A DNA stretch of 64,000 nt from Microbispora amethystogenes (GTDB lineage Bacteria; Actinomycetota; Actinomycetes; Streptosporangiales; Streptosporangiaceae), in the NCBI RefSeq assembly GCF_016863015.1, contig NZ_BOOB01000003.1, positions 248,001 to 312,000 on the forward strand, in the 5' to 3' direction. How positions within the stretch are numbered: position 1 is the stretch's first letter; each line of letters opens with the position of its first letter. A program made the position numbers and the translations under genes. Positions 41,111 through 57,416 of this stretch are shown one piece after another. The notes under the pieces are model-generated. The model had not been told where the DNA came from. It saw only the letters and a program-made list of their open reading frames with translations, and ran no database searches.

Positions 41111-44100
41111 TCAGAAGGGCTCGTCCAGGGCCAGCCGCCGGACCTCCGGCAGGTATTCGTCCAGCTCGCCCGGCTCGAACCGGCACATGCCGATCACGAA
41201 CCAGAACTGGCCGGTCACGTCGCCCTCCAGCTTGTACAGCCCGCCGGGGGAGAAGGCGGCCCACCCCTCCGGCAGGCCGAGCAGGGTCGTGCGGCGCGTA
41301 CGCCGCGGGACGTCCCACAGGATCACCACGCCGTCGTCCCCGCCGCTGGCGAGCAGGTCGCCCGAGGGGTGGAACGCGACGGACCAGATCCGGCGGCCGT
41401 GGCCCGCGAGGGAGCCGACGCGGGCGCCGGTCGACGGGTCCCACAGGTGGACGGCGAGGTCGTCGCCGGCCGTGGCGAGCAGGTCGCCGGACGGGCTGAA
41501 GGCGGCCGTCCACAGCCGGCCGCCGCCGTCGAGCACGTGCGCGCACTCGCCGGAGGCGAGGTCCCACAGGCGGGCGGTGCCGTCGTTGCTCGCGCTGGCC
41601 AGCAGGCCGCCCGCGGGGGAGAAGGCCACCGCGTAGACCCGGTCGCCGTGGCCGTCCAGCGTCGCCGTGCACCGGCCCGTCCGCAGGTCCCACAGCCGCA
41701 CCCGGCGGTCGTCGCAGCCGGTGGCGGCGAACCGCCCGCCGGGGTCGAAGGCGATCGACCTGACCCGTCCCCGGTGGCCGGAGAGGTTCGCGACCTGCCG
41801 CCCGGTGGGGCGGTACCACAGCCGCACGCTGTCGTCGTCGTTGGCGGTGGCCAGCAGCTCCCCGTCGGGGCTGAACGCCTCGGCCCACACGTGGTCGGTC
41901 TCCACGTTGAGCTCGCGCTCGTACACCCCCGCCACCGGGTTCCACAGGTAGACCCCGCCGTCGTTGCTCGCGGTCGCGAGCAGCGGCCCGGCCGGGCTGA
42001 AGACGGCCGACACCAGCCGGTCGGCCGTCCCGGTGAGCGATCGCAGGCGCCGTCCCGTCGCCGGGTCCCACAGGCGTACGTAGCCGTCGTTGCCGCAGGC
42101 GGCGAGCATGCCGCCGTCGGCGGAGAAGCGCACCGAGGTGATGCGGCGGCCGTGCCCGCGCAGCGTCTGGGCGCACTGCCCGGTGTTCGGGTCCCACAGT
42201 CGGGCGGTGCCGTCGTTGCTGCTGGTCGCGAGTTGCCGGCCGTCCGGGCGGAAGGCGAACGGCCACACCGATCCCCGGTGGCCGGTCAGCTCGGCGCGCG
42301 CCTGGGCGGTGACGGAGTCCCAGAGCCGCACGACGCCGTCGCTGTCTCCGGTGGCGAGCAGCTCCCCGGTGGGGTCGAACAGCACCTGGTAGACCGCGCC
42401 GCGGTGCCCCGGCAGGCTGCCGGCCGCCTCACCCGTGACCGGGTTCCACAGCCGTACGGCTCCCTCGGTGTCGCCGGAGGCGAGCAGCCGGCCCTCCGGG
42501 TGGAAGGCGAGGGAGTAGATCCGCCCGGGGTGCCCGGTCAGCTCGTGCAGCGCGGCGCCGGTGCGCGGGTCCCAGAGGCGCAGCACGCCCTGCCCGTCCC
42601 CGGCGGCCAGGCGGGTGCCGTCGGGGCTGAGCACGAGCCGGTAGACGGCTCCGCTGTGACCGGTCAGGTGATGGCGCACCTGCCCGGTGGCGAGGTCCCA
42701 CACGCGGATCACCCCCGCGCGGTCGCCGGTCACCAGCAGTCCCGGCAGGAACACGGCGGTGTAGATCGGGGCGCTGTGACCCGGCAGCTCCCGCACGAGC
42801 TCCCCGGACGCCCAGACCCGGACGACCCCGTCGGCGCCGCCGGCCGCGATCAGGTCGCCGGAGGTCACCACCGGCCACACCCCCTCGGGATGGCCGTGCA
42901 GGACGTGGGACGGCGCTCCGGTGTGCGGGTCCCACACCCGCACGGTCCCGTCGCTCGCGCCGGTCACCAGACCGGCCTCGCCGTAGACGACCTTGTAGAC
43001 GCGGCCGCGGTGGCCGTGCAGCGTGCGCAGCGCCGACCCGGTGACGGCGTCGCAGACCAGCACGCCGCCGTCCTCACCGCCGAGCGCGAGCACGCCGCCG
43101 TCGGGGTGGTAGGCGACCGGCTCCGGCAGGCGGCTGCTCTCGAAGTGGTAGCCGTACGGCACGCCCACGACGGCGGGGGCCGGCTCGGCGCCGACCGGGT
43201 CGCCCGCTCTCCCGCGGCCGCCGGGCCCGGCCGGTACGGCGGGTGCGACGGCCGCGCCGCGCAGTTCCGGCGCCGCGACGGGGACGCCGGTGGAGCCGAC
43301 GATCGCGGCTCGGTCCCAGCGGCTGCCCTCGACGGCGACGTCCCGCAGGTCGGTGCGGGCGAGCCGGGCCCGGGTGAGGTCGGCGCCGCGCAGGTCGGCG
43401 CCCACCAGCACGGCCTCGTCCAGGCGGGCGCCGGCCAGCCGGGCGTCCCTGAGCACGGCGTGGGAGAGGTCGGCCCCGACGAGCCGGGTGTCGGTCAGGT
43501 CGGCGCCGGTGAGATCCACGCCCTGCAGTTCGCGGTACGACAGGTCCTCACCGCTGAGCCGCGCCCCGCGCAGGTCGGTGCGCGCCGAGGTGCGCAGCCG
43601 GGTCGTCACCTTGATGGCGTTGGCCCGCGCGACGTCGCCGGAGGCGGGGGAGGCGAGCGTCCTGGCCGCCCACGCCTGCAGCCGGGACGCGTCGGCGAGG
43701 TCGCACAGGAAGTCGACGGTCAGCGTGGACAGCGGCCGCAGGCCCAGCCAGCCGGAGGGTCCGCCGGTGGTCCCGATCGGAGACCCGCCGAGCGACTCGG
43801 CCAGATGCCGGGCGACCAGCCACTCGGCGACCGAGGCGTGGATGAAGCCGAACAACCCCTCGTCGGTGCGCACGAGCAGGCTGCCCGCTCCGACCGCGTG
43901 CACGGCCTGCTCCGGCGTCAGCCGCGCCGCCCCCGCCGCCCCGCCCGATCCGTACGGCGCGGGGGTCCTCGGGTCGGCGGCGAGGCCGGTGAGCGTGTCG
44001 GCGGCCTCGGCCAGCTCGGCCGGCCGCAGGTAGGTCTCGCCGGTCTCCCACAGCCGCAGCGCGAGGGTGGTCGTGGCCCGCCGCAGCTCCTCGCGGGTGA

Positions 44101-46879
44101 GCCCGCCGGGGGCCCCGGCCACGCCGCCGACCCGCTCCTCCTCGAAGGCCAGCCAGGTGTCGAGGATCTCCTGGTAGAGACCGGCCGCGCTGATCGTCTC
44201 CCCGGCCCGCGCGACGGCTCGCAGCCGCTCCTCCGGCAGGTCGGCGATGAAGCTCAGCATGCGGGGGTTGTGGGCCAGGCCGAGCAGGTCGGCGATGCCG
44301 GTGAGCAGGGCCATCCGGTCGTCGGCCGCCTCCCGCGAGCCGTACCGGTTGAACAGGTACGCCCGGATCTGCTCCTCGGTGAACTCCTCGATGCCGAGCA
44401 CCCGGCGGTTGGGCAGCAGGCCGACCTTCTCGCCGAGCGCGGTCATCACCTGGCTGCGCGACTTGAAGTGCTGGGTCCGTCCGGCCACGACGATCTTGGC
44501 CTTGTCCTCCGCCGCGCGCAGCAGGGTGTCCAGGTGGTCGGCCGCCCGTTCGTACGTCACGCGGGTGACCAGCTCGTCGAAGCCGTCGAACAGCAGCACG
44601 ATGCGGCCCTGGCGCAGCATGTAGTGGAACGCCTTGAGGTCGATCAGCTCCTCGCCGTGGTTGGCGAGGTGCGCCGCGACCAGCCCGGCGACCGAGTGCG
44701 CCTTGTCGAGGGCGCGCAGCTCGATCAGGATCGGGGTGAGGTGCGGCAGCTCGGCGGGAATGCGCCGGGCCACCTCGCGCAGCGAGAACGTCTTGCCCCG
44801 GCCGAAGTCGCCGAGCACGAGCACGAACCGCCCGTGGTCGGCCGCGAGCAGCCGCATCAGCTCGCCGCCGAGGTCGTCGCGCACCTCGCCGCCGTTGCGG
44901 TCGAGCTCGCGGAACCGCTGCGGCACGTACAGCTCGGGCGGGTAACGCCGGTCGCCGCGCAGCCGCGCCGTCTGCCCGGCGACGTACGCCGACAGGTCGA
45001 GCAGGCCCTGGAACTCGGTGAAGCTGCGCAGGCGCAGCCCGCGCCGCAGGGCGTCGTCGCGTAACGCCCGGGGTGGCGGCGGGCCCTGGTAGACCAGCTC
45101 CGCCGCGTGCTCCAGCCCGGCCGCGTGGACGTGGCCGAGGAACGCCTCGACGTGCTCCTCGCCCGGCTCCCCGGCGTGCGCGCCGACGAGGACCTGCCGG
45201 ACGAAGCCGTCCTCGGGGTGGGTGACGAGCAGGCGCGGCGGGTCGCCGGCCACCCGTTTGATCTTGGCGCGTTCGAACCGGGTCTCGCAGACCTCGGCGA
45301 TGAGGTCGAGCAGCAGGTCGGCCGGGCCGGCGGGCTCCTCGGGGGCCACTTCCGGCGGTTCCGCGACCGGCGGCGGAGGGCTCTGCGGGCGCCACCCGCG
45401 CCAGCGGTAGGCCAGGACCTCCGGCTCGCGCAGCTCCGGCCGGTCGCGGGTCCACCGGCGCAGCCCCTCGGGCGTGAACTGGAGGATCTGGTGGCGTCCC
45501 GGAGCGAGCGCCGGCACGCACGGCAGACCGTCCAGCTCCCCGGCCTCGGCCGGGCCGTCGCGCCGCGCGTCCCGCGCGTGGACGAGCAGGTCGAGCCGGG
45601 AACCGAGCAGGCGCTGCAGGGTGTCGGCGTCGCGCAGGCCGGGGCGCGGGGGATGGGCGACGACGCCGATGCGCAGCCATCCGTCGTACGGCCGCAGCCG
45701 CTCGGCGAACCACGCCGCCTGGGCCTCGCCGACGAAGCCGTGGGCGTCCTCCTCGCGGTGGCTCATCGCGATGGTCGAGTTGATCCCGGCGACGACCGTG
45801 CGAAGCTCGGGCAGCTCGAACAGCGTCCACGGCTGGGCGCTGTCGAAGGCGGGGCCGTCGAGGCCCTGGTAGAGCTCGCCGAAGAGCGTGGAGAAGTGCC
45901 GCCACTTCGGCCAGTAGGGCGGCTGGGGGCGCACGTCGTCGGCCTCGCAGGTGGCGAAGTAGGCCCGGCACGCCGCCTTGGTGACGTCGCGCGGCCCGGG
46001 GACGACGGCGAGGCGCCCGGGTTCGAGGCCGAGCAGCACGCGCAGCCCGGTGAGGAACGCCAGCGCCTGCTCGCACTCGCGGATGCTGCCCGACTCGGTG
46101 AGGTCGCCGGTCACCACGAGCAGGTCGGGCCGGGGCACCCCGGCGTCCGCGAGGCGGGTCAGGTCGGCCCACACGCTCGCCTGCAACTCGCCCGCGTCGA
46201 GCGGCTCGTCCGCCTCCGCGAGCCCGCGCCCGAAGCGCGGCCCGGCGACGTGCAGCACGGTGACCGACGACGCGCCGCCCGCGCGGCCGGCCGTCGGGAA
46301 CGCCGGCTCGGCGGCCGGGGCCCGGCGTGCCCTGGGGATCCGTACGGCGGGCACCGGGTCGGCGGGCGGCCGGAGGGCACGCGGGCCGTGCGGACCCGGT
46401 GAGCCGTCGGCGGACGCGGCCGGGAACCGGGGCGGCTCGTCCGGTTTGGCCCGCCCGGCCAGGGCCTGCCTGATCCGGGTCAGCAGCAGCCGCCGCGCCT
46501 CGCCGGGGTCGGTCACGCCAAGGAGGTCGACCCAGGTGATCGTGGACAGCAGCCCGTCGAGCGGGCAGTCCTCCAGCCGGACCGTCACGAGCTTGTTGGA
46601 CGGGTTGTCCGGAGCGGCGCGCAGCGCCGCCTGCCACTCCAGCCTGCCGTACCGCGAGCCCAGGTAGTTGCGGGTGAGCACGGCGACGACCAGGTCGGCC
46701 TCGCTGACGCCGCGGTCCATGAAGTCGATGAAGTTGGTGCCGGGCACGAAGTCCCACGCCTGGAGCATCGTGCGGTAGCCGGCGGCTTCGAGCTGCCAGG
46801 CGATCCACGTCGCCCACCGCTCGTCCGCGGGGGAGTAGCTGACGAAGATCTCCGTTCTGGCGTCCCCGCGCCCGCTCAT
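41111..46879 (-). CDS. Giant TIR / degenerate metallophosphoesterase / NACHT / pentapeptide / WD40 protein
   Basis: The 1922-residue protein reads as a multi-domain STAND receptor. TIR: about 9-140 ('EIFVSYSPADERWA'; probable catalytic Glu81 in 'YGRLEWQAAL'). A calcineurin-like fold at about 204-470 keeps Asp259 ('VVTGDLTESG') and His409 but has lost the DxH ('HVAGPRFG'), GNHD ('PGPRDVT') and GHxH ('VHARDA') ligands. An unassigned domain spans about 519-655. NACHT follows: Walker A 'GDFGRGKT' at 690-697, Walker B 'LLFDGFDEL' at 762-770. Pentapeptide repeats lie at about 1103-1193, and fifteen WD40 repeats at about 1250-1870 precede a C-terminal cap. TIRs of this kind usually cleave or cyclise NAD. 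Inferred role: ligand-triggered antiviral suicide enzyme. GAGGGGG precedes the ATG, and no operon partner is seen. Confidence 0.85.
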   Translation of the reverse strand: MSGRGDARTEIFVSYSPADERWATWIAWQLEAAGYRTMLQAWDFVPGTNFIDFMDRGVSEADLVVAVLTRNYLGSRYGRLEWQAALRAAPDNPSNKLVTVRLEDCPLDGLLSTITWVDLLGVTDPGEARRLLLTRIRQALAGRAKPDEPPRFPAASADGSPGPHGPRALRPPADPVPAVRIPRARRAPAAEPAFPTAGRAGGASSVTVLHVAGPRFGRGLAEADEPLDAGELQASVWADLTRLADAGVPRPDLLVVTGDLTESGSIRECEQALAFLTGLRVLLGLEPGRLAVVPGPRDVTKAACRAYFATCEADDVRPQPPYWPKWRHFSTLFGELYQGLDGPAFDSAQPWTLFELPELRTVVAGINSTIAMSHREEDAHGFVGEAQAAWFAERLRPYDGWLRIGVVAHPPRPGLRDADTLQRLLGSRLDLLVHARDARRDGPAEAGELDGLPCVPALAPGRHQILQFTPEGLRRWTRDRPELREPEVLAYRWRGWRPQSPPPPVAEPPEVAPEEPAGPADLLLDLIAEVCETRFERAKIKRVAGDPPRLLVTHPEDGFVRQVLVGAHAGEPGEEHVEAFLGHVHAAGLEHAAELVYQGPPPPRALRDDALRRGLRLRSFTEFQGLLDLSAYVAGQTARLRGDRRYPPELYVPQRFRELDRNGGEVRDDLGGELMRLLAADHGRFVLVLGDFGRGKTFSLREVARRIPAELPHLTPILIELRALDKAHSVAGLVAAHLANHGEELIDLKAFHYMLRQGRIVLLFDGFDELVTRVTYERAADHLDTLLRAAEDKAKIVVAGRTQHFKSRSQVMTALGEKVGLLPNRRVLGIEEFTEEQIRAYLFNRYGSREAADDRMALLTGIADLLGLAHNPRMLSFIADLPEERLRAVARAGETISAAGLYQEILDTWLAFEEERVGGVAGAPGGLTREELRRATTTLALRLWETGETYLRPAELAEAADTLTGLAADPRTPAPYGSGGAAGAARLTPEQAVHAVGAGSLLVRTDEGLFGFIHASVAEWLVARHLAESLGGSPIGTTGGPSGWLGLRPLSTLTVDFLCDLADASRLQAWAARTLASPASGDVARANAIKVTTRLRTSARTDLRGARLSGEDLSYRELQGVDLTGADLTDTRLVGADLSHAVLRDARLAGARLDEAVLVGADLRGADLTRARLARTDLRDVAVEGSRWDRAAIVGSTGVPVAAPELRGAAVAPAVPAGPGGRGRAGDPVGAEPAPAVVGVPYGYHFESSRLPEPVAYHPDGGVLALGGEDGGVLVCDAVTGSALRTLHGHRGRVYKVVYGEAGLVTGASDGTVRVWDPHTGAPSHVLHGHPEGVWPVVTSGDLIAAGGADGVVRVWASGELVRELPGHSAPIYTAVFLPGLLVTGDRAGVIRVWDLATGQVRHHLTGHSGAVYRLVLSPDGTRLAAGDGQGVLRLWDPRTGAALHELTGHPGRIYSLAFHPEGRLLASGDTEGAVRLWNPVTGEAAGSLPGHRGAVYQVLFDPTGELLATGDSDGVVRLWDSVTAQARAELTGHRGSVWPFAFRPDGRQLATSSNDGTARLWDPNTGQCAQTLRGHGRRITSVRFSADGGMLAACGNDGYVRLWDPATGRRLRSLTGTADRLVSAVFSPAGPLLATASNDGGVYLWNPVAGVYERELNVETDHVWAEAFSPDGELLATANDDDSVRLWYRPTGRQVANLSGHRGRVRSIAFDPGGRFAATGCDDRRVRLWDLRTGRCTATLDGHGDRVYAVAFSPAGGLLASASNDGTARLWDLASGECAHVLDGGGRLWTAAFSPSGDLLATAGDDLAVHLWDPSTGARVGSLAGHGRRIWSVAFHPSGDLLASGGDDGVVILWDVPRRTRRTTLLGLPEGWAAFSPGGLYKLEGDVTGQFWFVIGMCRFEPGELDEYLPEVRRLALDEPF
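41270..43140 (-). repeat. Array of fifteen WD40 repeats (about 126 bp each)
   Basis: This is the 3' third of the TIR-NACHT gene. Each unit is about 42 residues of the type 'FSPDGELLATANDDDSVRLW' followed by 'TG......L.GH'. Fifteen units fit two seven- or eight-bladed propellers. The middle units are very alike at DNA level (the GGTCCCACAG block recurs), so recombination between repeats is plausible. Confidence 0.85.
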
Positions 46880-47057
46880 GCCGCCCCCTCACCCGGCGGC
46901 CCGGGTAGGCGGACCGCCCGTTGCCTGGTGATTCGCCCGATCATGCCCTGTTCGCCGCAATCACCCACCGGCCGCCCCCATCGACGTGCGTCATGGGGCC
47001 CAGTATTCCCGCTGTCACCGACGGTTTGGAGGGGTTCGATCATCTCGGCGTGCGGGA

Positions 47058-47063: not shown

Positions 47064-47069
47064 GTCCGC

Positions 47070-48260
47070 GTGGCGACCGGGCTGCGGAGGCTGAGCGTTC
47101 TCGACTGGATCAGGTTCGGGCTGCTCGCGGCGGGCCTGGTGTTCGTGGCCACCGGCCTGCTGCCGGCCGAGACCGCGAGGGAGAGCGTCGAGCGCATCGC
47201 GCCCCTGCTGCTGTTCCTCGGCGCGGTCATCGTGCTCGCCGAGCTGACCAAGGAGGCGCGGGTCTTCGACGTCATCGCGACCCGCATCGCGATCGTCGGC
47301 CGGGGCAGCTACGCGAGCCTCTTCCTGCTGTGCGCGGCGTTCGCCTCCCTGGTCACGATATTCCTGAACCTGGACACGACGGCCGTCCTGCTGACGCCGG
47401 TCATGCTGGCCCTGGCGCCCCGCGCGAAGATCGCCCCGCTGCCGATGGTGATGACCACGGTGTGGCTGGCCAACACCGCGAGCCTGCTGCTGCCGGTCTC
47501 CAACCTCACCAACCTGCTCGCCATGAACCGCGTCGCGCTGACCACCCAGGAGTTCGCCGCGCGGATGTGGGCGCCCCAGCTCGTCTCGATCGCGGTCACG
47601 ATGGCCTTCCTCTGGGTGTTCTACTGGCGGCGCGGCGAGCGGGGGGAGGACCGGTACGAGCCGCCGCCGCCGGTCCCGGTGGCCGACCGGGTGCTGTTCG
47701 GCGTCTCCGGGGTGGCCTGCCTGCTGTTCATCGCCGCGATCCTGGCGGGCGTCGAGATCGGCGTCGCGGCCCTGGTCGCGGCGGTCGCGGTGGTCGCCGC
47801 CTTCGCCTGGCGCGACCGGGCGAAGCTCGTGTGGGGCCTGGTCCCCTGGCGGCTGCTGGTCTTCGTCACCGGCCTGTTCCTCGTGGTCCCGACGCTCAGC
47901 CGCCTCGGCCTGGCGGACGTGATGCGCGCGCTCATCGGCGTGGGGAGCGACGGAGACGGCGCCTACCGCGCGGCCGCCGCCGGGGCCGCGCTGTCCAACG
48001 TGGTCAACAACCTCCCGGCGTACGTCGCGGGCGAGCAGGTCATCCCGGCGGCCAACCACACGCAGTTGCTGTCGCTGCTCGCGGGCACCAACCTCGGCCC
48101 GGTGATCACGCCGTGGGGGTCGCTCGCGACCCTGCTGTGGTTCGAGTGGTGCCGCCGGGGGGACGTGCGGGTGCCGCTGGCCAAGTTCGTCGCCACCGGC
48201 GCGGGCCTCGCCGTGGCCGGCCTCGCCGCGACGGTGACCGTCCTGGTCCTCACCGGCTGA
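47070..48260 (+). CDS. ArsB/NhaD/SLC13-like permease
   Basis: The 396-residue protein has about ten TM segments. The ion-transporter-superfamily hairpins are 'NLDTTAVLLTPVMLAL' and 'LSNVVNNLPAYVAGEQ', with 'GTNLGPVITPWGSLATLLW' near the C-terminus, all typical of ArsB-type and citrate/arsenite permeases. It could export an oxyanion or exchange Na+/H+ or dicarboxylates. No arsR or arsC is adjacent, so an arsenite role is not supported by context. Its 3' end overlaps the convergent TIM-barrel gene by 11 bp. Confidence 0.85.
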   Translation: MATGLRRLSVLDWIRFGLLAAGLVFVATGLLPAETARESVERIAPLLLFLGAVIVLAELTKEARVFDVIATRIAIVGRGSYASLFLLCAAFASLVTIFLNLDTTAVLLTPVMLALAPRAKIAPLPMVMTTVWLANTASLLLPVSNLTNLLAMNRVALTTQEFAARMWAPQLVSIAVTMAFLWVFYWRRGERGEDRYEPPPPVPVADRVLFGVSGVACLLFIAAILAGVEIGVAALVAAVAVVAAFAWRDRAKLVWGLVPWRLLVFVTGLFLVVPTLSRLGLADVMRALIGVGSDGDGAYRAAAAGAALSNVVNNLPAYVAGEQVIPAANHTQLLSLLAGTNLGPVITPWGSLATLLWFEWCRRGDVRVPLAKFVATGAGLAVAGLAATVTVLVLTG

Positions 48261-49263
48261 GCGCGCCGCCGACCCGGCCCGGCCAGGCGGCGTACGCGTG
48301 GAACGCCTCCTTCGGCTCCCGCGACCCGTCCGGCAGGCAGCGGACGACGCCGTACGCCGCGAGGTCGAGATCGTGGGCGGGGTCGGGACGATGGGGATAG
48401 CTGTAGGACGCGAACGTGAAGAGGAAGGCCGTGTCCACCCCCTCCTCGGCGAAGACGTCCAGCAGCCCGGTGATCTCGGCGGCCTGCTCGTGCTCGTCGC
48501 GGACCAGCGGCTCCCGCAGCCGGGCGGGCTCCGCCGCGCGGTCCACGACGTTCCAGGCCGTCGCGCCCCGCGCCGCCGCGCCCCGGTAGGTGCAGCAGCC
48601 GAACTCGGTGACCGCGAACGGCCTGCCGTGCGCCTGGTAGGCCCGGATCCGCTCGCGGTAGACGGCGGCGTTGCCCGCGTCCCTGTAGTGGTCCACGGCG
48701 ACCACGTCGAAGGGCGACCAGTCCACCTCCTCCCACGGCCCCGCCGCGTACGTCACCCGGCCCCCGAACTCCGCCCGCACGACCGGCGCCGCGCGGGCCA
48801 GGAAGCCGTTCAGCCGCCGGTTGAACGAGCCCTTGAGCGCCAGGTTCGCGACGAGCCGGGGGACGGAGGTGAACGTGCGCATCCGGGCGAAGGCGTCCCG
48901 GCCGAGGACGAGCCCGCGCATGAAGAACGTCAGCTCCCGCCCGGTGACGAACACCACCCGGTCCGAGCCCGCGCGGAGCCGTTCGGCGGCCCTCGCGCAC
49001 CGCGCCAGATAGGGCAGCCACTCGCCCGGACGGGCGTTGTGCGCGTCGGGCGAGAACCACACCTCCAGCCCCTCGGCGAGGGCGTGCTCGGCCGCGACGG
49101 TCAGCCGGCCGAGGTCCTCGCCGAAGATCCGTACGGCGGCGCAGCCGAGGTCGTGGCGGATGACGCGCATCTCCTCGCGCACCTGGCCCGCGTCGAAGCG
49201 GGGCCGCGAGGGCCGGTCGGCGGTCGTCCGGATGCCCACGTCGTAGTTGATCGCCTTCCGCAT
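48250..49263 (-). CDS. TIM-barrel glycoside-hydrolase-like protein ('abortive infection' annotated family)
   Basis: The 337-residue protein looks like a (beta/alpha)8 barrel. It has 'MRVIRHDLGCAAVRIFG' and 'LEVWFSPDAHN', a possible general acid region 'VVFVTGRELTFFMRG', and 'PFAVTEFGCC', whose Glu is placed like a GH nucleophile. From memory, homologues in Streptomyces are often labelled 'abortive infection protein', a name without known basis. ATG 49263 is divergent from a TetR gene across 48 bp containing two palindromes, so it is probably that regulator's target. No signal peptide is seen, so it is cytosolic. Confidence 0.7.
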   Translation of the reverse strand: MRKAINYDVGIRTTADRPSRPRFDAGQVREEMRVIRHDLGCAAVRIFGEDLGRLTVAAEHALAEGLEVWFSPDAHNARPGEWLPYLARCARAAERLRAGSDRVVFVTGRELTFFMRGLVLGRDAFARMRTFTSVPRLVANLALKGSFNRRLNGFLARAAPVVRAEFGGRVTYAAGPWEEVDWSPFDVVAVDHYRDAGNAAVYRERIRAYQAHGRPFAVTEFGCCTYRGAAARGATAWNVVDRAAEPARLREPLVRDEHEQAAEITGLLDVFAEEGVDTAFLFTFASYSYPHRPDPAHDLDLAAYGVVRCLPDGSREPKEAFHAYAAWPGRVGGALSR

Positions 49264-49277
49264 GACTCCGCCCTTCT

Positions 49278-49310
49278 CGATACAGCGTATCGACACGATA
49301 CACTGTATCG
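49278..49310 (+). promoter_or_regulatory. Two tandem TetR-type operators in a 48-bp divergent promoter
   Basis: CGATAC-AGC-GTATCG (49278-49292) and CGATACA-C-TGTATCG (49296-49310) are adjacent palindromes sharing CGATAC/GTATCG arms. The second contains TACACT (49299-49304), a likely -10 for the TetR gene, and ends one base before its GTG. Occupancy would block transcription in both directions. Confidence 0.8.
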
Positions 49311-49311
49311 A

Positions 49312-49983
49312 GTGAGTGTGATCTGGGAGCGGCCCGAGCCGGGCGAACGCCGGTCCGTACGGCTGAGCAGGCAGGCCGTCACCGCCGCGGCCGTCGCCCT
49401 CGCCGACGCCGAGGGGCTGGAGGCCGTGTCGCTGCGCCGGGTGGCCGCCGCGCTCGGGACCGGCCCCATGCGCCTGTACGGCTACCTCGATTCCAAGGAC
49501 GACCTGCTCGACCTGATGATGGACGCGGTCTGCGGCGAGATCCCGCCGCCTCCGCCCGGCGACTGGCGCGAGGAACTGCGGGCCATCGCGCGGGACACCC
49601 AGCGCACGGCCCGGCGTCACCCCTGGTACGTCACGCTGCTCGGCACCCGCCAGCCGTACGGGCCGAACGGGCTCGCCTACTCCGAGCGGCTGTTCGCGGC
49701 CGTGGCCCGGCTGGGGCTGCCGGCGCGGCTCACCGTCCACGCGGTGGACGCGGTCCGGGCCTACATCGCGGGCTTCCTGCAACTGGAGCTGCTGCCGGGC
49801 CCGGAGGCGGAGCCGGGGGAGGAGAAGCTGGCCTATCTCGCCCGCTCGGTCGCCACCGGGAGGTATCCGACGCTGGCGTGGATCATCGCCGAGTTCGAGG
49901 CGGTCGGCCCGGACGAGGCGTTCGCCGAGGGGCTCGAACGCGTCCTCGACGGCATCGCCGCCGCCCGGCCCGGCGCGTCCTGA
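49312..49983 (+). CDS. TetR-family transcriptional regulator
   Basis: The 223-residue protein has an HTH ('VSLRRVAAALGTGPMRLYGY', about 42-61) preceded by an N-terminal 'RPEPGERRSVRLSRQAV' arm, and a TetR_C domain. GTG 49312 follows a TACACT -10 by 7 nt, implying a leaderless transcript. It is divergent from the TIM-barrel gene and probably represses both through the two palindromes between them. The ligand is unknown. Confidence 0.9.
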   Translation: MSVIWERPEPGERRSVRLSRQAVTAAAVALADAEGLEAVSLRRVAAALGTGPMRLYGYLDSKDDLLDLMMDAVCGEIPPPPPGDWREELRAIARDTQRTARRHPWYVTLLGTRQPYGPNGLAYSERLFAAVARLGLPARLTVHAVDAVRAYIAGFLQLELLPGPEAEPGEEKLAYLARSVATGRYPTLAWIIAEFEAVGPDEAFAEGLERVLDGIAAARPGAS

Positions 49984-50087
49984 TCTTCCTGCCGGACGTT
50001 GCCTATGGACACCGTTGAGAACGACACGGGAAAAAGTTGTCGAAATCCTCATGAGCCAGGAGGGTGGTCCTGGTATGGGATCGTCCC

Positions 50088-50699
50088 GTGACAGATGAAC
50101 AGCGCCCATCGCGGCGGCGTCTCCCCGCCGGAGACATCGCCAGGGTCAGCGTCTTCGCCGCGCTGATCGCCGTGCTCGGCCTGCCGGGCACGCTGAACGT
50201 CTTCGGCGACGTGGTGCCGATCACGTTGCAGACGCTCGGCGTCATGCTCGCCGGGGCGATCCTGGGCACCTGGCGGTCCGCTCTCGCCGTCGCGGTCCTG
50301 CTCGTGCTGGTCGCCGCGGGGCTTCCGCTGCTCGCCGGCGGACGCGGCGGCCTCGGCGTCTTCGCCGGCCCCTCGGCCGGCTTCCTGATCGGCTGGCTCC
50401 CCGGGGCGGCCCTGACCGGCTGGATCGTCGAGCGCGGCGGCCGCGCCCCGGGCACGATGCGGATGCTGGCCGCCTGCCTCGCGGGCGGCGTCGGGGTGGT
50501 CTACCTGTGCGGCATCCCCGTGCAGGCGCTGGTCACCGGGCTCTCCCTGGGCAAGACCGCCCTGCTCAGCGCCACCTTCCTGCCCGGGGACCTGATCAAG
50601 GCGGTGCTGGCGACGGTCGTGGCGCGGGGCACCCAGCGGGCCTACCCGGACGCGATCCCGGCGGTGCACCGCGAGCGGCTGCGGGCCGGGGGACGGTGA
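50088..50699 (+). CDS. bioY: Biotin transporter S-component BioY
   Basis: The BioY fold is evident in about six TM segments with 'VFAALIAVLGLPGTLNVFGD', 'VPITLQTLGVMLAGAILG', 'GRGGLGVFAGPSAGFLIG' and 'TFLPGDLIKAVLATVVA'. BioY binds biotin in the membrane and works with the BioM ATPase and BioN permease encoded 2.8 kb downstream. GTG 50088 gives 203 residues; GTG 50064 in the same frame is possible but lies too close to AGGAGG. It is the first gene of a five-gene operon. No recognised biotin operator was found in the 104 bp upstream. Confidence 0.92.
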   Translation: MTDEQRPSRRRLPAGDIARVSVFAALIAVLGLPGTLNVFGDVVPITLQTLGVMLAGAILGTWRSALAVAVLLVLVAAGLPLLAGGRGGLGVFAGPSAGFLIGWLPGAALTGWIVERGGRAPGTMRMLAACLAGGVGVVYLCGIPVQALVTGLSLGKTALLSATFLPGDLIKAVLATVVARGTQRAYPDAIPAVHRERLRAGGR

Positions 50700-50706
50700 T
50701 CCCCCC

Positions 50707-52332
50707 GTGCCGGTAGCCGACCGGGTCCTGCTCCACGCCACCGCCCGTCCGCACCAGGTCGCGGTGTCCGGCCCCGGAGGCGACCTGACCTACGCCGAAC
50801 TCGCCGGCCGCGCCGGACGGGCCGCCCGCCATCTGCGTGACCGGGGTGCCGGGCGCGGCGCGCTGGTCGCGGCCGGCCAGGCCGACCCGGTGGACCTGCT
50901 CGTCGCCGTGCTCGCCGCCGACCTCGCGGGCGCCACACCGCTGCTGTGCGACCATACGTGGAGCGCGGAGCGGCGCGAGCAGGTCATGGCCGCGGTGCCC
51001 GTCGCCGCCCGCTTCGACGCCCCGCTGCCCGGGGCGGACGGCCCGCCCGTACGGCACGATCCGGCCCCGGGCGACCTGACCTGGGCCTGCTTCAGCTCCG
51101 GCAGCACCGGAAGGCCGCGCGCGGTGGTGCGCACCCGCGCCTCCTGGACCGGGTCGTTCCCCCACCTGGACGAGCTGACCGGGATCGGCCCGGACGACGT
51201 CGTGCTGATCCCCGGCCCGCTGGTCTCCTCCCTGTACGGCTTCGCGGCGGCGCACACCCTGGCGGCGGGCGCCACCGCGGTGGTGCCCGGCCGGTGGTCT
51301 CCCGGGGCGCTGGCCGGGCAGCTCAGCCGGGCCACCGCGGTCCACGTGGTGCCCCACTGTCTGCCGGCGGTGCTGGACGTGCTGGAGGCGGCCGGCGGCC
51401 CGCTGCGTACGGCCGTGGTGGGCGGGGCCGCCCTGGACCCCGGCGCCCGGACCCGCGCGGCGGGGGCCGGAGTGCGTGTGGTGTCCTATTACGGCGCGAC
51501 CGAGCTGTCGTTCGTCGCCGTGGACGCCGACGGCCGCGGGCTGCGGCCGTTCCCCGGCGTCGAGATCGACGTCAGGCCGGAGCCCGGGCACGCCCTGGGT
51601 GAGGTGTGGGTGCGTTCTCCCTGGCTGTGCGAGGGCTATCTGGCGGGAGCCGCCGGGCCCCTGCGCCGGGACGGCGACGGCTGGACGACGGTCGGCGACC
51701 TCGCCGAGCCGTACCGGCCGGGCGAGGTCCTGCGGCTGCGCGGCCGCGGCGACGGCGCGATCCAGACCGGCGGCGCCACGGTGGTGCCCGAGGACGTCGA
51801 GGAGGTGCTGAGGAAGGTGCCCGGAGTGAACGACGTGGTCGTGGTCGGCACGCCGCACCCCTACCTCGGCGCGGTCGTCACCGCGGTCGTGGAAACGGTC
51901 GTCGAGACTGCGGCCAGGGCGATCACCGACGGCACCGTCGCGAACAGCGCCTGTGGGCCCGCCGAAGACGACCCCGAGGGGGCTGCCGAGAGCGGTGCCA
52001 AGGGGAGCGGCGAGGGTGCCGTGCGAAGCGACGGCCTCTTGCGGGGGGCTCTGGAAGGGGTGGCGCGCGCCGAACTCGATCCGGCGCAGCGGCCCCGGCG
52101 CTGGTACGCCACGCGCTCCCTGCCCCGCACGGCCGCCGGGAAGCCGGCCCGCGGCCTGCTCGCCGCCCACCTCGCCGCCCGTTTCGCCGGCGAGAGCGTC
52201 GGCTCCGCGAGCCAGAGCTCCGGCAACGGCCATCCCGAGAGCAGCCACCCGGAGAGCAGCGGCGCGATGATCGGCGGCCCGGAGACCGGTGGCCCGGAGA
52301 CCGGTGGCCCGGAGATCTGGCGGCTCGGCTGA
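50707..52332 (+). CDS. AMP-forming acyl-CoA ligase (YhfT-like)
   Basis: The 541-residue protein is an ANL-superfamily enzyme: 'CFSSGSTGRPRAVV' (P-loop), 'VSYYGATELSFV' (A5), 'TVGDLAEPYR' (A7), 'GGATVVPEDVEEVL' (A8 hinge) and the catalytic Lys in 'RTAAGKPARGLL'. It activates a carboxylate to acyl-AMP and then to a thioester. A low-complexity insertion (about 400-450) and a repetitive tail ('HPESSHPESS', 'GGPETGGPETGG') are unusual. Sitting between bioY and bioMN, it resembles B. subtilis yhfT beside bioY2 (yhfU), so a role in biotin-precursor acyl metabolism is inferred. It starts 7 bp after bioY. Confidence 0.85.
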   Translation: MPVADRVLLHATARPHQVAVSGPGGDLTYAELAGRAGRAARHLRDRGAGRGALVAAGQADPVDLLVAVLAADLAGATPLLCDHTWSAERREQVMAAVPVAARFDAPLPGADGPPVRHDPAPGDLTWACFSSGSTGRPRAVVRTRASWTGSFPHLDELTGIGPDDVVLIPGPLVSSLYGFAAAHTLAAGATAVVPGRWSPGALAGQLSRATAVHVVPHCLPAVLDVLEAAGGPLRTAVVGGAALDPGARTRAAGAGVRVVSYYGATELSFVAVDADGRGLRPFPGVEIDVRPEPGHALGEVWVRSPWLCEGYLAGAAGPLRRDGDGWTTVGDLAEPYRPGEVLRLRGRGDGAIQTGGATVVPEDVEEVLRKVPGVNDVVVVGTPHPYLGAVVTAVVETVVETAARAITDGTVANSACGPAEDDPEGAAESGAKGSGEGAVRSDGLLRGALEGVARAELDPAQRPRRWYATRSLPRTAAGKPARGLLAAHLAARFAGESVGSASQSSGNGHPESSHPESSGAMIGGPETGGPETGGPEIWRLG

Positions 52333-52333
52333 G

Positions 52334-53485
52334 ATGGACGATCAGCCGGTGATCGTGGCGGCCCGCCGTACCCCCATCGGCACCGCCGGTCACGCCTTCG
52401 CGACCGTGCCGGTCCACCGGCTCGCCGCGCCGGTCATCGAGGCGGTGGTCCGCGACGCCGGGCCTCTCGGCGTACCGGTGGACGACGTGGTGCTGGGCAA
52501 CTGCACGGGTCCCGGAGGCAACCTGGCGCGGGTCTGCGCGCTGGCCGCCGGGCTGGGGCCGGAGGTGCCGGGCGTCACCGTCGACCGGCAGTGCGGCAGC
52601 GGGCTCGCCGCGATCCTGCTGGCCGCCCAGGCCGTACGCTGCGGGGAGGCCGCCCTCGTCGTCGCCGGCGGGGCCGAGAGCGCCTCGACCGCGCCGCTGC
52701 GGGTCAGCCGGCGGGAGGGTGAGCCGGGCGTGCCGTACGAACGGGCGCCGTTCGCGCCGGAGGGCCACCCGGACCCCGACATGGGCCCGGCGGCCGAAGC
52801 GCTCGCCGCCGCGTACGGCGTGACCAGGGAACGCCAGGACGACTACGCCCGCCGGAGCCACGAGCGGGCGCTGGCCGCCCGCCAGGCGGGCCGGTTCGAG
52901 CGGGAGATCGTCCCGATCGGCGGCCGGACCGACGACCAGCGGCCGCGCGTCCTGAGGCCCGCGTCGCTGGCCCGGCTGCCCGCCGCGTTCGTGCCGGGCG
53001 GCACGGTGACGGCCGGCAACTCCTCCCCGGTGAGCGACGGCGCGGCGGCCGTGGCGGTCGTGCCGGAGCGGCTGCGCGCCGCGGCCGGGCTGCCCGGCCT
53101 GCGCCTGCTGGCCGGGACCGTGACCGGCTGCGACCCCGCGCTGCCCGGATGGGGGCCGGTGCCCGCCGTACGGCGGGTGCTGGAGCGGACCGGGACGGAC
53201 CTGGCGCGGGTGGCGGCGGTGGAGATCGTGGAGGCGTTCGCGGCGCAGGTGCTCGCCGTGACCGACGCGCTCGGTCTCGACCCGCTCGGCGCCGACACGG
53301 ACCGGGTGAGCGCCGGCGGCGGCGCTCTCGCCCTCGGCCACCCCTGGGGCGCGAGCGGCGCCGTCGTGGTGACCCGGCTGTTCAGCCGGCTTCTCGGGGA
53401 GGGGGCGCCGCCGGGCACGCTGGGCCTGGCGGCGGTCGCGGTCGGCGGCGGTCTGGGGATCGCCGCCCTGTTCGAGGTGGTTTGA
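52334..53485 (+). CDS. Thiolase-fold protein with altered active site (YhfS-like)
   Basis: The 383-residue protein aligns with acetyl-CoA acetyltransferases. The nucleophile Cys87 is in 'VDRQCGSGLAA' and His336 in 'LGHPWGASG'. Two normally invariant positions differ: the Asn of NEAFA is Val299 ('EIVEAFAAQ'), and the second catalytic Cys of CxGGG is Ala369 ('VAVGGGLG'). It may therefore catalyse a different Claisen or transfer step, or only hydrolysis. The start lies just after the ligase stop, in a bioY - ligase - thiolase - bioM - bioN operon, which suggests work on a biotin precursor thioester. Confidence 0.85.
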   Translation: MDDQPVIVAARRTPIGTAGHAFATVPVHRLAAPVIEAVVRDAGPLGVPVDDVVLGNCTGPGGNLARVCALAAGLGPEVPGVTVDRQCGSGLAAILLAAQAVRCGEAALVVAGGAESASTAPLRVSRREGEPGVPYERAPFAPEGHPDPDMGPAAEALAAAYGVTRERQDDYARRSHERALAARQAGRFEREIVPIGGRTDDQRPRVLRPASLARLPAAFVPGGTVTAGNSSPVSDGAAAVAVVPERLRAAAGLPGLRLLAGTVTGCDPALPGWGPVPAVRRVLERTGTDLARVAAVEIVEAFAAQVLAVTDALGLDPLGADTDRVSAGGGALALGHPWGASGAVVVTRLFSRLLGEGAPPGTLGLAAVAVGGGLGIAALFEVV

Positions 53486-54160
53486 GTGATCCGGCTGACG
53501 GACGTCCATGTGCGGCTCGGGCAGCGGGAGGTGCTGCGCGGCGTCACGGCCACGCTGACCGAGCGCCGGGTGGGGGTGGTCGGGGCCAACGGCTCGGGCA
53601 AGAGCACGCTCGCCCGCCTGCTCAACGGCCTGGTGCTGCCGTCCTCGGGCGGCGTCACCGTGTTCGGGCTCGACACGCGCCGTCACGCGGCCCGGATCAG
53701 GCGCGGGGTCGGGTTCCTGTTCACCGACCCCGACGCGCAGATCGTGATGCCGACGGTCGCCGAGGACGTCGCCTTCTCGCTGCGGCGCAAGGGCCTGCCG
53801 CGCGAGGAGACCGAGCGGCGGGTGCGGGAGACGCTGGAGAGGTACGGCCTCGCGGAGCACGCCGACCACCCCGCGCACCACCTGTCCGGCGGCCAGAAGC
53901 AGTTGCTCGCCCTCTGCTCGGTCCTCGTGCTCGAACCGGAGATCCTCGTCATGGACGAACCCACCACCCTGCTCGACCTGCGGCACTCCCGGCAGGTCGC
54001 GGGCGTGCTGCGGAGCCTGCCGCAGCAGGTGGTGGTGGTCACCCACGACCTTCCGTTGCTGGAGGACTTCGACCGCGTGCTCGTGGTGGACCAGGGCCGG
54101 ATCGTCGCCGACGCCGATCCCGCGACCGCGATCGGCCACTACCGGAAGATGATGGCGTGA
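53486..54160 (+). CDS. bioM: Biotin ECF transporter ATP-binding protein BioM
   Basis: The 224-residue ECF-type ATPase has Walker A 'GANGSGKSTLARL', Q-loop 'FTDPDAQIVMPT' (the ECF hallmark), signature 'LSGGQKQLLALCS', Walker B 'ILVMDEPTTLLD' and H-loop 'VVVTHDLPLL'. The GTG start is immediately after the preceding TGA and its end overlaps bioN. Together with BioN and BioY it forms the energised biotin importer. The operon context supports biotin over cobalt or other ECF substrates. Confidence 0.93.
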   Translation: MIRLTDVHVRLGQREVLRGVTATLTERRVGVVGANGSGKSTLARLLNGLVLPSSGGVTVFGLDTRRHAARIRRGVGFLFTDPDAQIVMPTVAEDVAFSLRRKGLPREETERRVRETLERYGLAEHADHPAHHLSGGQKQLLALCSVLVLEPEILVMDEPTTLLDLRHSRQVAGVLRSLPQQVVVVTHDLPLLEDFDRVLVVDQGRIVADADPATAIGHYRKMMA

Positions 54161-54821: not shown

Positions 54822-55712
54822 CTAGATCGGGGGGAGGGCCGGTGCGAGGCGGCGGGCCTCGGCGACCAGGTCGAGGAGGTCTCCGACCAGGGCGGGCGGC
54901 GCGGCGACGAAGCTGCGGTCCTCGGGCGGCCCCTCGGCCGACGCCTCGAAGGGCTGGCCGTCGAACCCGCGGATCTCCACCCCCGCCTCCTGCGCGATCA
55001 GCGCCCCGGCGGGCAGGTCGAGCCCCTCGGCGTGGTAGCCGATCATGCCGTCGATGTCGCCGCGGGCGAGCATCGCCCAGCACAGCAGCGGTGCCCACAG
55101 CTGGAGCACCCGCCGGGCGCGGACCTCCATCGTCATCCTCAGCGACCGCGCCGCCGGGTCGCGCCGGGAGACCCCGTGGCCCTGCGTCCATCCCAGCACC
55201 GGGCCGTGCGGGAGGTTCCGCCGCGGCGGCCCGGTCAGCGGCCCGGCGGGCCCGAGCGCCCCGGCGTCGCGTACGGCCGACCAGGTGTGGCCGGACACCG
55301 GTTCGTGCACGACGCCCACCACCGGGCGGGACCCCGCGCACAGCGCCAGGCCCACGACGTACGCAGGGAGGCCGATCGCCACGTTGTTCGTGCCGTCGAG
55401 GGGATCGACCAGCCAGGTCCACCCGTCGGCTTCCGGTCCGTCTCCGTGCGGGCCGGCAGCGGAACCGGCAGCGGAACCGGCTGCGGAACCGGCGTGGACG
55501 CCCGACTCCTCGGCCACGATCCGGTGGGCCGGGAACTCCGCCCGGAGCCGTTCGACGATCAGTTTCTCGGCGGCCAGGTCGAGGTCGGTCACGACGTCGC
55601 CTGACGTGCCCTTCGGCCGGGCGGCGGCCGCGCCCGGCACGCTCTCCCGCAGCGCCGACCCGGCGGCCAGGGCGGCCTCCACGGCTATCCGCCTTGCGTG
55701 TTCGAGGTCCAC
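54822..55712 (-). CDS. Inositol monophosphatase family protein
   Basis: The 296-residue protein has the IMPase metal motifs: Glu68-Glu69 in 'IVAEESG', Asp103-Asp106 in 'LVDPLDGTNN', and the distal 'LDLPAGALIAQEAG', where the usual WD is LD with the Asp retained. A small Gly/Ala/Ser triple repeat lies at about 75-87. Substrates of this family include inositol phosphate, fructose-1,6-bisphosphate and PAP. GTG 55712 has GGAGAAG upstream. It overlaps the cupin-like gene by 28 bp, so the two are co-expressed. Confidence 0.88.
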   Translation of the reverse strand: MDLEHARRIAVEAALAAGSALRESVPGAAAARPKGTSGDVVTDLDLAAEKLIVERLRAEFPAHRIVAEESGVHAGSAAGSAAGSAAGPHGDGPEADGWTWLVDPLDGTNNVAIGLPAYVVGLALCAGSRPVVGVVHEPVSGHTWSAVRDAGALGPAGPLTGPPRRNLPHGPVLGWTQGHGVSRRDPAARSLRMTMEVRARRVLQLWAPLLCWAMLARGDIDGMIGYHAEGLDLPAGALIAQEAGVEIRGFDGQPFEASAEGPPEDRSFVAAPPALVGDLLDLVAEARRLAPALPPI

Positions 55713-56338
55713 AGGCTTCTCCTGGCCAGCTCGGCGGCACGTGCGGTGTCGGCGGCGTCGAGGCGTTCCCGCCTGACGTGGTGGAGGGGCGTGGCGAGCG
55801 GCCCGAGCGACAGGTCTCCCCGTTCCGGCCGGACGCGGCCGAGGGCCACCGTGGCGGCCTCGCCCTCGCCGGGGATGACGCTGCTGTGGAAGGCGCCCGC
55901 GACGAGGGTGTAGGTGTCTCCCGCCCCGAAGACCTCGGCACGCCCCGGGGCGTACCGGACCGTCCTGCCGGTGGGCCGCAGGACGTCGCCCTCGGGGGCG
56001 CTGACCACCTCGAACACGCGGTGGGTGGGGGACTCGGCAGTGTCGGTGAGCGCGGCCTGCACGTTGCACACCCGGCCGTAAAGGACGTGGCTGATCAGGT
56101 CCCAGCTGTGGCAGTGGATCTGTGAGGTGGTGCTGCGCGCGGGCCGCGCGGCGGAGGTCCAGATGTGCACGCACACCCCGAGCCCGCCGTCGCGTTCCAC
56201 GGGCAGGCAGAGGAACCCGAGCGGGTGCCGCACGCCCAGGATCGGGGTGCCGCCCGCCGCGATCTCGGTGAGCACGCCGAGCGCCCACTCGCGGGCGTTC
56301 CCGCCCGTCAGCACAGCGAGCACCTCCCGGTATCTCAT
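55685..56338 (-). CDS. Cupin-like protein of unknown function
   Basis: The 217-residue product shows two cupin-like motifs: 'IHCHSWDLISHVLYGRV' (HxH near residue 75) and 'VAGAFHSSVIP' with a later His. The arrangement is reminiscent of metal-binding cupins such as cysteine-dioxygenase relatives, but I cannot assign a family. It is co-transcribed with and overlaps the IMPase gene, suggesting a shared phosphorylated-metabolite pathway; this is inference. Confidence 0.6.
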   Translation of the reverse strand: MRYREVLAVLTGGNAREWALGVLTEIAAGGTPILGVRHPLGFLCLPVERDGGLGVCVHIWTSAARPARSTTSQIHCHSWDLISHVLYGRVCNVQAALTDTAESPTHRVFEVVSAPEGDVLRPTGRTVRYAPGRAEVFGAGDTYTLVAGAFHSSVIPGEGEAATVALGRVRPERGDLSLGPLATPLHHVRRERLDAADTARAAELARRSLWTSNTQGG

Positions 56339-56378: not shown

Positions 56379-57416
56379 TCATGGCGCGTACGGGTCCTTG
56401 GCGCGCAGTGCCTTGCGGGTGACCTCGACCACGTCCCGGTCGGTGAACGACTTGGGCAGCGGAAGCTCGACGCCGTCGAACAACCTGCGGACCTCCTCGA
56501 CGGTCGGCTCGTCGCTCAGCTGCACCGACCGGTAGCGGTCGATCGGCAGGCGGCGGGCCTGCTCGAAGCTGGTGCGCAGCTCGGCGCCGCAACTGCCGTA
56601 GAAGAACGAGCCGCTGTAGGCGATGATCGCCCGGTTGGGGTCCTCGGAGGTCATGATGAGGGAGCGGTCCGACATGTCCCAGCGGAAGGTCGTCATGACC
56701 GGGGACAGGCCGACCGCGATGTCGAGCAGGCCGTACCGCTGGCGGTACCAGAACGCGGCCAGGACGCTCGCGTACGACTCCTTCCTGGCGCGTTCGGTCG
56801 TCCACATCTCGCCGGTGCCGTCCGGGCGGTCCGACAACGACCTGCGGTAGTGCGCGTAACTCTCGCACACCGCCTCGTCGGTCGGGTCGATGATCTCCAT
56901 CCGGATCGTGAGGTGCCGCCGGTCGCGCCGCGCGGCGGCCACGCACTCGGGGAGCGTGACGGCGCGCATGTAGGTGCCGGTGCCGCCCTTGAACGTCCAG
57001 TGGTCGGTGCCCCGCCGCGCGTCCGCGTGGGCCTGGGCGATCTCGTGCCTGCTGCCCAGGATGCGGATGACCGCCATGTCCTCCAGCGCCCTGCGGGTGC
57101 CCGCGACCAGCTCCTCCAGCTGGTCGAGGCGGCCCAGCCGCTCGGGCAGCCGCGCCAGGACGCCGGAGGTGGCGTGCATGGCCTCCTCCACCGGCTCCTG
57201 CCGGGCGCGGTCGCGCAGCAGCGCGGTCGCCACCAGGGCGAGGACGACCAGCGTGGTGCCGCTGACGAGCTGCGACTTGACCTTGTCGGAGAGCACGTCG
57301 TCGGGCAGCACGCCCAGCACGCCCACCACCACGGCCAGCACCAGGGCGATGGCGCCGTCGACGTTCTTGCCCGCCCACGCGGCGGCCTGGCCGACGGCAG
57401 CTCGCAGTCCCGCCAT
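56379..57416 (-). CDS. Two-TM membrane protein with unrecognised globular domain
   Basis: The 345-residue protein has two N-terminal TM segments (about 20-38 and 48-66) and a short helical linker (about 75-110). A soluble domain at about 115-345 contains 'DHWTFKGGTGTYMRAVTLP', 'LTIRMEIIDPTDEAVCESY' and 'SDRSLIMTSEDPNRAIIAY'. I do not recognise the domain. The arrangement 'two TM plus cytosolic domain' is shared by many membrane-associated defence effectors, but there is no catalytic motif I can name. The ATG at 57416 stands alone, 266 bp from the divergent uvrB. Confidence 0.7.
   Translation of the reverse strand: MAGLRAAVGQAAAWAGKNVDGAIALVLAVVVGVLGVLPDDVLSDKVKSQLVSGTTLVVLALVATALLRDRARQEPVEEAMHATSGVLARLPERLGRLDQLEELVAGTRRALEDMAVIRILGSRHEIAQAHADARRGTDHWTFKGGTGTYMRAVTLPECVAAARRDRRHLTIRMEIIDPTDEAVCESYAHYRRSLSDRPDGTGEMWTTERARKESYASVLAAFWYRQRYGLLDIAVGLSPVMTTFRWDMSDRSLIMTSEDPNRAIIAYSGSFFYGSCGAELRTSFEQARRLPIDRYRSVQLSDEPTVEEVRRLFDGVELPLPKSFTDRDVVEVTRKALRAKDPYAP

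Follow-up and report, generated by a model that had tools for sequence, protein, structure and literature searches.

Bacterial NACHT proteins (bNACHT) defend by way of an N-terminal effector and a C-terminal sensor (PMC12169576), and DS-8, a protein that joins a metallophosphatase to NACHT, requires both domains for phage defence (PMC13092281). In humans, TEP1, which combines a TIR-like domain, NACHT, and WD40 repeats, is an active NADase, i.e., an enzyme that turns over nicotinamide adenine dinucleotide (NAD) (PMC13174449). Here we describe gene E of Microbispora amethystogenes, which lies in a 64,000-nucleotide stretch of contig NZ_BOOB01000003.1 (the window, to whose positions all coordinates of this locus refer) and encodes, in one protein, a TIR domain, a pseudo-phosphoesterase, NACHT, pentapeptide repeats, and a WD40 array. 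The gene is accompanied by four others, A to D, with which it forms a cassette. With a probability of roughly 0.58, we interpret the locus as a NACHT-gated TIR switch that would act on NAD, with A and B as its probable membrane arm.

Gene E resembles bNACHT proteins in having an effector-type N-terminus, a central NACHT with Walker A and B motifs, and sensor-type C-terminal repeats, the two ends being assigned presumptive roles on this basis; the bNACHT proteins in the available text differ in having nuclease or no discernible effectors and NCH1 or SNaCT domains (PMC12169576). Compared by description with DS-8 and DS-9 (DefensePredictor; available part of PMC13092281), gene E has the phosphoesterase and NACHT of DS-8 in one protein, and four relatives without TIR (L096, L097, L098, and L120) have the same pair with the active site largely intact. 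The link to DS-9 is a remote match of the gene E phosphoesterase to the NCBIfam model DS9_1 (4.4e-9, with 35.7 bits where the cut-off is 420). Gene E differs from both in lacking the motif I Asp and, with it, the intact set of metal-ligand motifs of an active calcineurin-like phosphoesterase, and in having a TIR domain in front, a pentapeptide and WD40 tail, and a five-gene cassette. TEP1, NWD1, and proteins of the APAF-1 type, in which NACHT or an AP-ATPase is joined to WD40, share an NAD-related or effector N-terminus, an NTPase switch, and WD40 propellers; TEP1 is eukaryotic and has DUF4062 rather than TIR_2, and phosphoesterase and iREase go unmentioned in the available part of its description (PMC13174449). 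STAND conflict systems whose effectors are TIR or calcineurin domains use the same classes of effector, switch, and repeat, likewise in multicellular bacteria, with neither the gene E architecture nor the cassette named in the available portions of the two reports (PMC8195603, PMC7159879).

The architecture and the A to D cassette are unnamed in the open-licence literature searched, and an entry in tables of subscription papers or in supplements is possible. At least 120 relatives are listed, under names such as "TIR domain-containing protein," "WD40 repeat," and "hypothetical protein," with one "Hat/HatR" and a few "CpdA." Among the PADLOC models listed for gene E at E ≤0.001 there is none for Avs, just those for HEAT-ARM_XIII (via WD40), bSEFIR, and Aga TIR, and the protein is not covered by any model of that collection. 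ThsB of Thoeris is a small TIR protein, and, judged by PADLOC and Pfam matches, the cassette has no ThsA, of either SIR2-SLOG or TM-macro type, beside its TIR gene. Thoeris with a TM-macro effector is similar to the cassette in pairing a TIR protein with a two-helix membrane protein that has a further domain (available part of PMC11204291). It differs in that gene A has neither a listed Pfam macro domain nor a PADLOC match, and in that E is an NLR.

Gene E and its relatives without TIR

The first-pass annotation of this DNA had described a single 1922-residue frame containing TIR, calcineurin-like, NACHT, pentapeptide, and WD40 regions, and the frame, its coordinates, and its length hold, on the minus strand (Table 1). 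The codon-position G+C content (0.771/0.539/0.965) has a coding pattern in a window of 72% G+C, the genome itself has a single full copy of the gene, and the best protein-search matches are named Microbispora. A profile search of cut segments, which that annotation had proposed as a check, recovered TIR_2, NACHT (38.4 bits, above the cut-off of 26.7), and Pentapeptide from Pfam, and the number of WD40 repeats agrees with the fifteen then counted. NACHT is accompanied by a helical region and preceded by a domain that had been overlooked, NA-iREase3 (a NACHT-associated inactive restriction endonuclease fold), with 131.8 bits against a curated cut-off of 27 in gene E and a match in 25 of 25 family members. 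The calcineurin-like fold proposed earlier is supported in the family, in which 19 of 25 members match Metallophos (E ≤0.1; best 5.9e-7), and falls below the Pfam cut-off in gene E alone (E 0.058). Against the PDB, the family profile lists 13 chains at E ≤1 (best 0.0032), namely Rv0805/Icc, LMO2642, a phosphohydrolase, and 5'-nucleotidase/UshA, all of which we take to be calcineurin-type enzymes.

Loci of relatives were the best 80 of 177 from titled genomes, and the query included TIR, so that TIR-bearing relatives are favoured. The main alignment has 80 rows, consisting of the window protein and 79 fetched loci (one was dropped for length). The Walker A residues G690, G693, G695, K696, and T697 and the Walker B stretch DGFDE are identical in every row, in agreement with the intact motifs first reported. 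Glu81, the apparent catalytic residue of the first-pass annotation, presumably sits in helix C of the TIR fold and is present in 79 of the 79 rows that reach the domain, one row beginning downstream of it.

The TIR domains of animal TLRs are scaffolds. The closest solved structures to the gene E TIR are those of TLR15/TLR2, TLR1, and MyD88, and a Glu is aligned with Glu81 in the TLR rows printed among the PDB matches; for this reason, the residue alone is, as far as alignment can tell, no proof of NADase activity. These matches, and the presence of gene A in all 68 loci with sufficient upstream sequence (see below), would suit a TIR that acts as a scaffold rather than an enzyme, with the real output provided by gene A or another partner through TIR-TIR contacts. 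We consider such an arrangement improbable: Glu81 is invariant, the TIR domain is strongly constrained, and SpbK, a bacterial TIR protein that has been tested, is reported to be an NADase (PMC12847820).

The four relatives without TIR bear on the origin of this architecture. In L097, L098, and L120, the protein starts at the phosphoesterase, and in L098 the pentapeptide-WD40 part is a separate frame with an overlap of a few bases with the phosphoesterase-NACHT frame. L096 is close to a contig end. One Microbispora genome (G506) carries both the TIR form and L120. In NACHT, the four are 37-52% identical to the window protein, and the C-terminal tail is likewise shared (Table 1), while the N-terminus differs. 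In all 80 rows of the TIR family, the motif I Asp of the phosphoesterase is replaced by Gly, and no His is among the residues listed at either position of motif V; motif III of the window protein reads GPRD. All four relatives without TIR retain Asp in motifs I and II, GNHD, His in motif IV, and GH-x-H, and they carry Gln at the position of the motif I His. Judged by these motifs, the phosphoesterase active site has been lost, specifically in the TIR lineage. The stretches fetched around the four relatives contain none of genes A to D, and the genomes of three of them gave no match to A.

A phylogeny built from the iREase-NACHT region places 30 TIR rows on one side of a branch with a support of 86/99. 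The tree was midpoint-rooted and has long branches for L098 and L096, and only the split of the TIR rows from the rest was used. Because NACHT and the tail stay alike while the N-terminus changes, the simplest reading would be a single effector swap, in which TIR was gained, the phosphoesterase decayed, and the cassette was recruited. For the direction of the swap, we infer a phosphoesterase-NACHT receptor as the ancestor, since dead enzymes generally descend from live ones. With its two N-termini, the same NACHT-pentapeptide-WD40 chassis looks like a natural record of effector swapping in a bacterial NLR. Two further observations concern these relatives: the WD40 repeats of L098 look much alike, and the N-terminal stretch of L096, ahead of its phosphoesterase, resembles a trypsin-type protease by eye, which may give this chassis a third arrangement of effectors.

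Linkage of genes A to E and their chromosomal place

Genes in the loci were picked by codon composition, by which small or odd genes may be missed, and the count excludes the 12 of 80 loci in which the sequence upstream of E is shorter than 8.5 kb. In the remaining 68, A, B, and D are always present and C occurs in 65, with the order and strands (A+ B+ C+ D-, then E+) kept in 64. Five of the 12 short loci have A, B, C, and D, five have only D, one has C and D, and one, cut short, has none. The cassette is also found in Nocardia and Streptomyces. As far as these sequences indicate, it is five genes, and not gene E alone, that are conserved together at the locus.

A main group of 62 loci comes mostly from Streptosporangiaceae and Actinomadura, and the other 18 are from Nocardia, Streptomyces, one Pseudonocardiales genome, Herbidospora, and Acrocarpospora. 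The block between coaE and uvrB had first appeared to be non-conserved, which the comparison contradicts: coaE lies in the stretch in 45 of the 46 main-group loci whose downstream sequence reaches 6 kb. Outside the main group, coaE is found in none of the 16 loci with as much downstream sequence, though cassette genes are present.

In the window, bioY, AMP-binding, thiolase, and ABC genes stand between the A-B-C part (54822-57416) and the D-E part (41111-48260). Five of the six loci titled Microbispora have matches to bioY and the AMP-binding gene, and the 74 others have none. A genome of the same genus, G097, has no A or E (each sought in the genome as a whole), and the 32 kb retrieved from it contain no B, C, or D; it retains the bioY-to-ABC block, coaE, and uvrB, and the GH113-like open reading frame (ORF) gave no match there. 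Since G097 has the splitting block and none of A to E, both halves of the split cassette are absent together.

Strong matches to E (>600 bits) occur in 21 of 100 family genomes, and A occurs in 27. All 21 genomes with strong E carry A, 17 on the same contig and four on other contigs of fragmented assemblies. Of the six with A and no strong E, three carry it between coaE and uvrB (two as A-B, one as A by itself), two have A-B-C elsewhere, and one has a remote A; A-B therefore cannot depend on E alone. A search of 396 genomes of the phylum, with three candidates scored per genome, gave no strong match to E beyond the genome of origin, Nocardia and Streptomyces members being known. The six genomes, and the conservation of gene order at the coaE site in any case, would be compatible with A to D being passengers that local synteny has fixed beside E with no functional link to it. 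This seems very unlikely to us, given the joint absence of both halves from G097 and the persistence of the cassette in Nocardia, Streptomyces, the Pseudonocardiales genome, and Herbidospora/Acrocarpospora, in stretches where coaE and uvrB were not found.

Evolutionary tempo and the proposed switch

Among five Microbispora sequences (10 pairs), the ratio of nonsynonymous to synonymous substitution rates (dN/dS) of gene E is 0.19 overall, with 0.08 for TIR (the lowest value bar the tail, at 0.06), 0.12 for NACHT, 0.21 for WD40, and 0.30 for the helical region. There is no sign that the WD40 array diversifies as a whole, its ratio being similar to that of the whole protein (0.21 vs. 0.19); blades 3, 12, and 13 are faster, with dN of 0.07-0.09 compared with 0.01-0.05 in the other twelve. 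The repeat count is 15 in 68 of 80 rows, 14 in eight, 16 in three, and 13 in one. Taken as a whole, the sensor evolves under purifying selection. Across the 39 loci in which each of the seven genes under comparison is present, pairwise distances are correlated for D-E (r = 0.931), A-E (r = 0.914), and E-coaE (r = 0.877); distances of the cassette genes follow one another and coaE, the pattern that largely vertical inheritance at the coaE site would produce.

From the first proposal of a bacterial NLR of STAND type, the C-terminal sensor, NACHT switch, and TIR effector are retained, and the pseudo-phosphoesterase fits. The variable block is not retained, the sensor does not diversify fast as a whole, and Glu81 alone does not demonstrate NADase activity. 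In the switch that we favour, the WD40 array and pentapeptide spacer would keep gene E off and recognise a conserved ligand, whose binding would allow ATP-loaded NACHT modules to assemble and bring the TIR domains together. The clustered TIR domains would then cleave NAD or make an NAD-derived signal. The protein could have arisen from a phosphoesterase-NACHT receptor to which TIR was added in front, the phosphoesterase losing its metal site and staying as a scaffold, with A to D recruited. Gene A, with two hydrophobic helices and a compact domain, would together with the cupin-like B be the best candidate for a membrane arm, answering either the TIR product or the same stress, while C (a phosphatase) and D (an anion transporter) may process and move a related small molecule. 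The affected cell would, as a result, stop growing or die within its multicellular filament, with invading DNA as the most likely target of the response. Of this picture, the sequences show the architecture, the conserved motifs, the effector-swap pattern, and the linkage of the cassette; the NAD chemistry, the assembly, the roles of A to D, the direction of the swap, and the trigger are proposed.

The stability of the locus, the purifying selection, and the abundance of small-molecule genes also suit a conserved housekeeping or developmental checkpoint, in which E would sense an internal metabolite or protein state, the cassette would handle a small-molecule pathway in growth or sporulation, and TIR would be a regulated NAD consumer or a scaffold. 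The conserved place near coaE, the constraint on every domain tested, the correlation of distances with coaE, the single full copy in the genome, and companions that are enzymes and a transporter are all in its favour, and for these reasons we treat it as possible. It remains doubtful in view of the absence of the whole cassette from a Microbispora genome, the restriction of strong E to 21 of 100 family genomes, the phage defence by the similarly built DS-8, and the occurrence of A-B on plasmids in conflict-like surroundings (see below).

Several observations weigh against the NAD-acting switch in defence, beginning with the TLR and MyD88 best matches of its TIR and the six of 27 A-positive genomes that have no strong E. 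Strong E persists in 12 of 15 Microbispora genomes, which is high for a defence island, and gene E has neither the variable place nor the phage or plasmid carriage of a mobile one: a search of phages gave one weak match, in the NACHT region, and the only close match in the plasmid collection is a Nonomuraea record of chromosome size. Neither dN/dS nor the repeat counts give a sign of a sensor that is hypervariable as a whole. To our knowledge, a transporter and an inositol monophosphatase (IMPase) are unusual in defence systems. Decay of the phosphoesterase is partial, with the motif II Asp present in 56 of 80 rows, the motif III His in 33, and the motif IV His in all 80, and the support of 86 for the split of the TIR rows is under the tool's mark of 95. 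Finally, of the four human NACHT proteins purified in one study, only TEP1 showed NAD turnover (PMC13174449), and the build of gene E therefore does not guarantee activity.

Companion genes and remote A-B pairs

Genes A and B are families without annotation beyond weak cupin matches, and they make a signalling partner of a TIR-NLR in bacteria testable. The gene B family matches Cupin_2 weakly in nine of 27 members (best 0.011), and no PDB chain was found for it at E ≤10. Gene A has a GGTG-x-Y-x-R stretch, in which GGTGT is invariant in the alignment and followed by Arg three positions later; its structure model has a mean predicted local distance difference test score (pLDDT) of 81.5, mostly >90 from about residue 120. 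The protein matches no family in Pfam, NCBIfam, or PADLOC, matches of its family are weak and each confined to at most four of 33 members, and no macro domain is among the Pfam families listed for the alignment. None of A to D has a PADLOC match at E ≤1. The family profile of gene C matches a solved IMPase at 1.7e-42.

A relation of gene A to DUF5919/PLD-like proteins is unsupported, with an hhalign probability of 0.1% against one DUF5919-bearing protein, a weak test with a single sequence. DUF5919 was found in two of 30 genomes of the class and not in the genome of origin, in a search whose controls were also silent. One record (P0313) joins gene A to a cyclase; it looked broken or chimeric and was set aside. 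Gene A gave no match in phages, and of three pattern matches in viral contigs none was confirmed. A scan for promoters and terminators around the D-E gap found nothing.

Remote relatives of gene A are in records named Mycolicibacterium, Bradyrhizobium, and Microvirga, among others, and A-B pairs occur on plasmids of Rhodococcus opacus and a Methylobacterium, each with a recombinase gene next to it. In both plasmid pairs, A overlaps the B relative that follows; hhalign probabilities are 93.5 and 97.4 for the B relatives and 98.6 for the Methylobacterium A. The row of genes beside the Methylobacterium pair looks like a conflict island (Table 1). A more speculative extension of the NAD-acting switch, which we hold only tentatively and regard as unlikely as it stands, is that A-B may be a mobile two-gene membrane effector module, distributed from actinomycetes to alphaproteobacterial plasmids and answering the TIR-NLR product, so that E with A to D would constitute an NAD-signal system in which TIR took the place of a phosphoesterase effector and acquired a membrane partner, with C and D tuning the signal.

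Table 1. Positions of gene E, its domains, the companion genes, and features of related loci.
Feature	Sequence	Position	Strand	Basis or remark
Gene E, 1922 residues, TIR/pseudo-phosphoesterase/NA-iREase3/NACHT/pentapeptide/WD40	window	41111..46879	-	complete frame
TIR domain, residues 11-130	window	46490..46849	-	Pfam TIR_2 1.5e-34
TIR Glu81 codon	window	46637-46639	-	
Pseudo-phosphoesterase, calcineurin-like fold, metal ligands lost, residues ~205-470	window	45470..46267	-	weak profile matches and family alignment
NA-iREase3, residues 521-629	window	44993..45319	-	Pfam PF22739 2.5e-38
NACHT NTPase, residues 684-845	window	44345..44830	-	Pfam 1.4e-9
Walker A	window	44789-44812	-	
Walker B	window	44570-44596	-	
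Pentapeptide repeats, residues ~1099-1190	window	43310..43585	-	Pfam 6.4e-21
15 WD40 repeats, residues ~1237-1857	window	41309..43171	-	WD40 profile on whole protein, ~42-residue spacing
C-terminal tail, conserved, common to relatives without TIR	window	41111..41308	-	49-57% identity in L096, L097, L098, L120
Gene D, ArsB/CitMHS-type transporter, divergent from E	window	47070..48260	+	Pfam CitMHS 1.7e-36
Gene C, inositol-monophosphatase-family phosphatase; start codon unsettled, may overlap B	window	54822..55700	-	tblastn 61% to family
Gene B, cupin-like, conserved HxH	window	55685..56338	-	H75, H77, H151 invariant among 27 sequences
Gene A, two hydrophobic N-terminal helices (by eye) and alpha/beta domain	window	56379..57416	-	alignment and structure model
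Splitting block, outside cassette: GH113-like ORF, bioY, AMP-binding, thiolase, ABC	window	48250..54160	.	
GH113-like ORF inside split cassette	window	48250-49350	-	GH113 0.011, under cut-off
Relative without TIR, live-looking phosphoesterase	L096	5725-11523	-	
Relative without TIR, two overlapping frames	L098	7465-12698		
Paralogue without TIR, phosphoesterase largely intact	L120 (Microbispora genome G506)	8583-13757		
Second, remote copy of A in the same cassette, beside D	L099	11220-12221	-	38% identical
CARF6, ORC-CDC6-like ATPase, calcineurin-type, and D12 methyltransferase genes in row beside A-B	L117 (Methylobacterium plasmid)	1563-6458		
Trypsin-type protease gene directly ahead of A-B	L116 (Rhodococcus opacus plasmid)	6968-7639		

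An ORF akin to the GH113-like ORF of the window also occurs in L099, where it adjoins the second, remote copy of A. Between a GNAT gene and coaE, the window contains a dispersed repeat (38640-38860), many copies of which are present across two Microbispora genomes.

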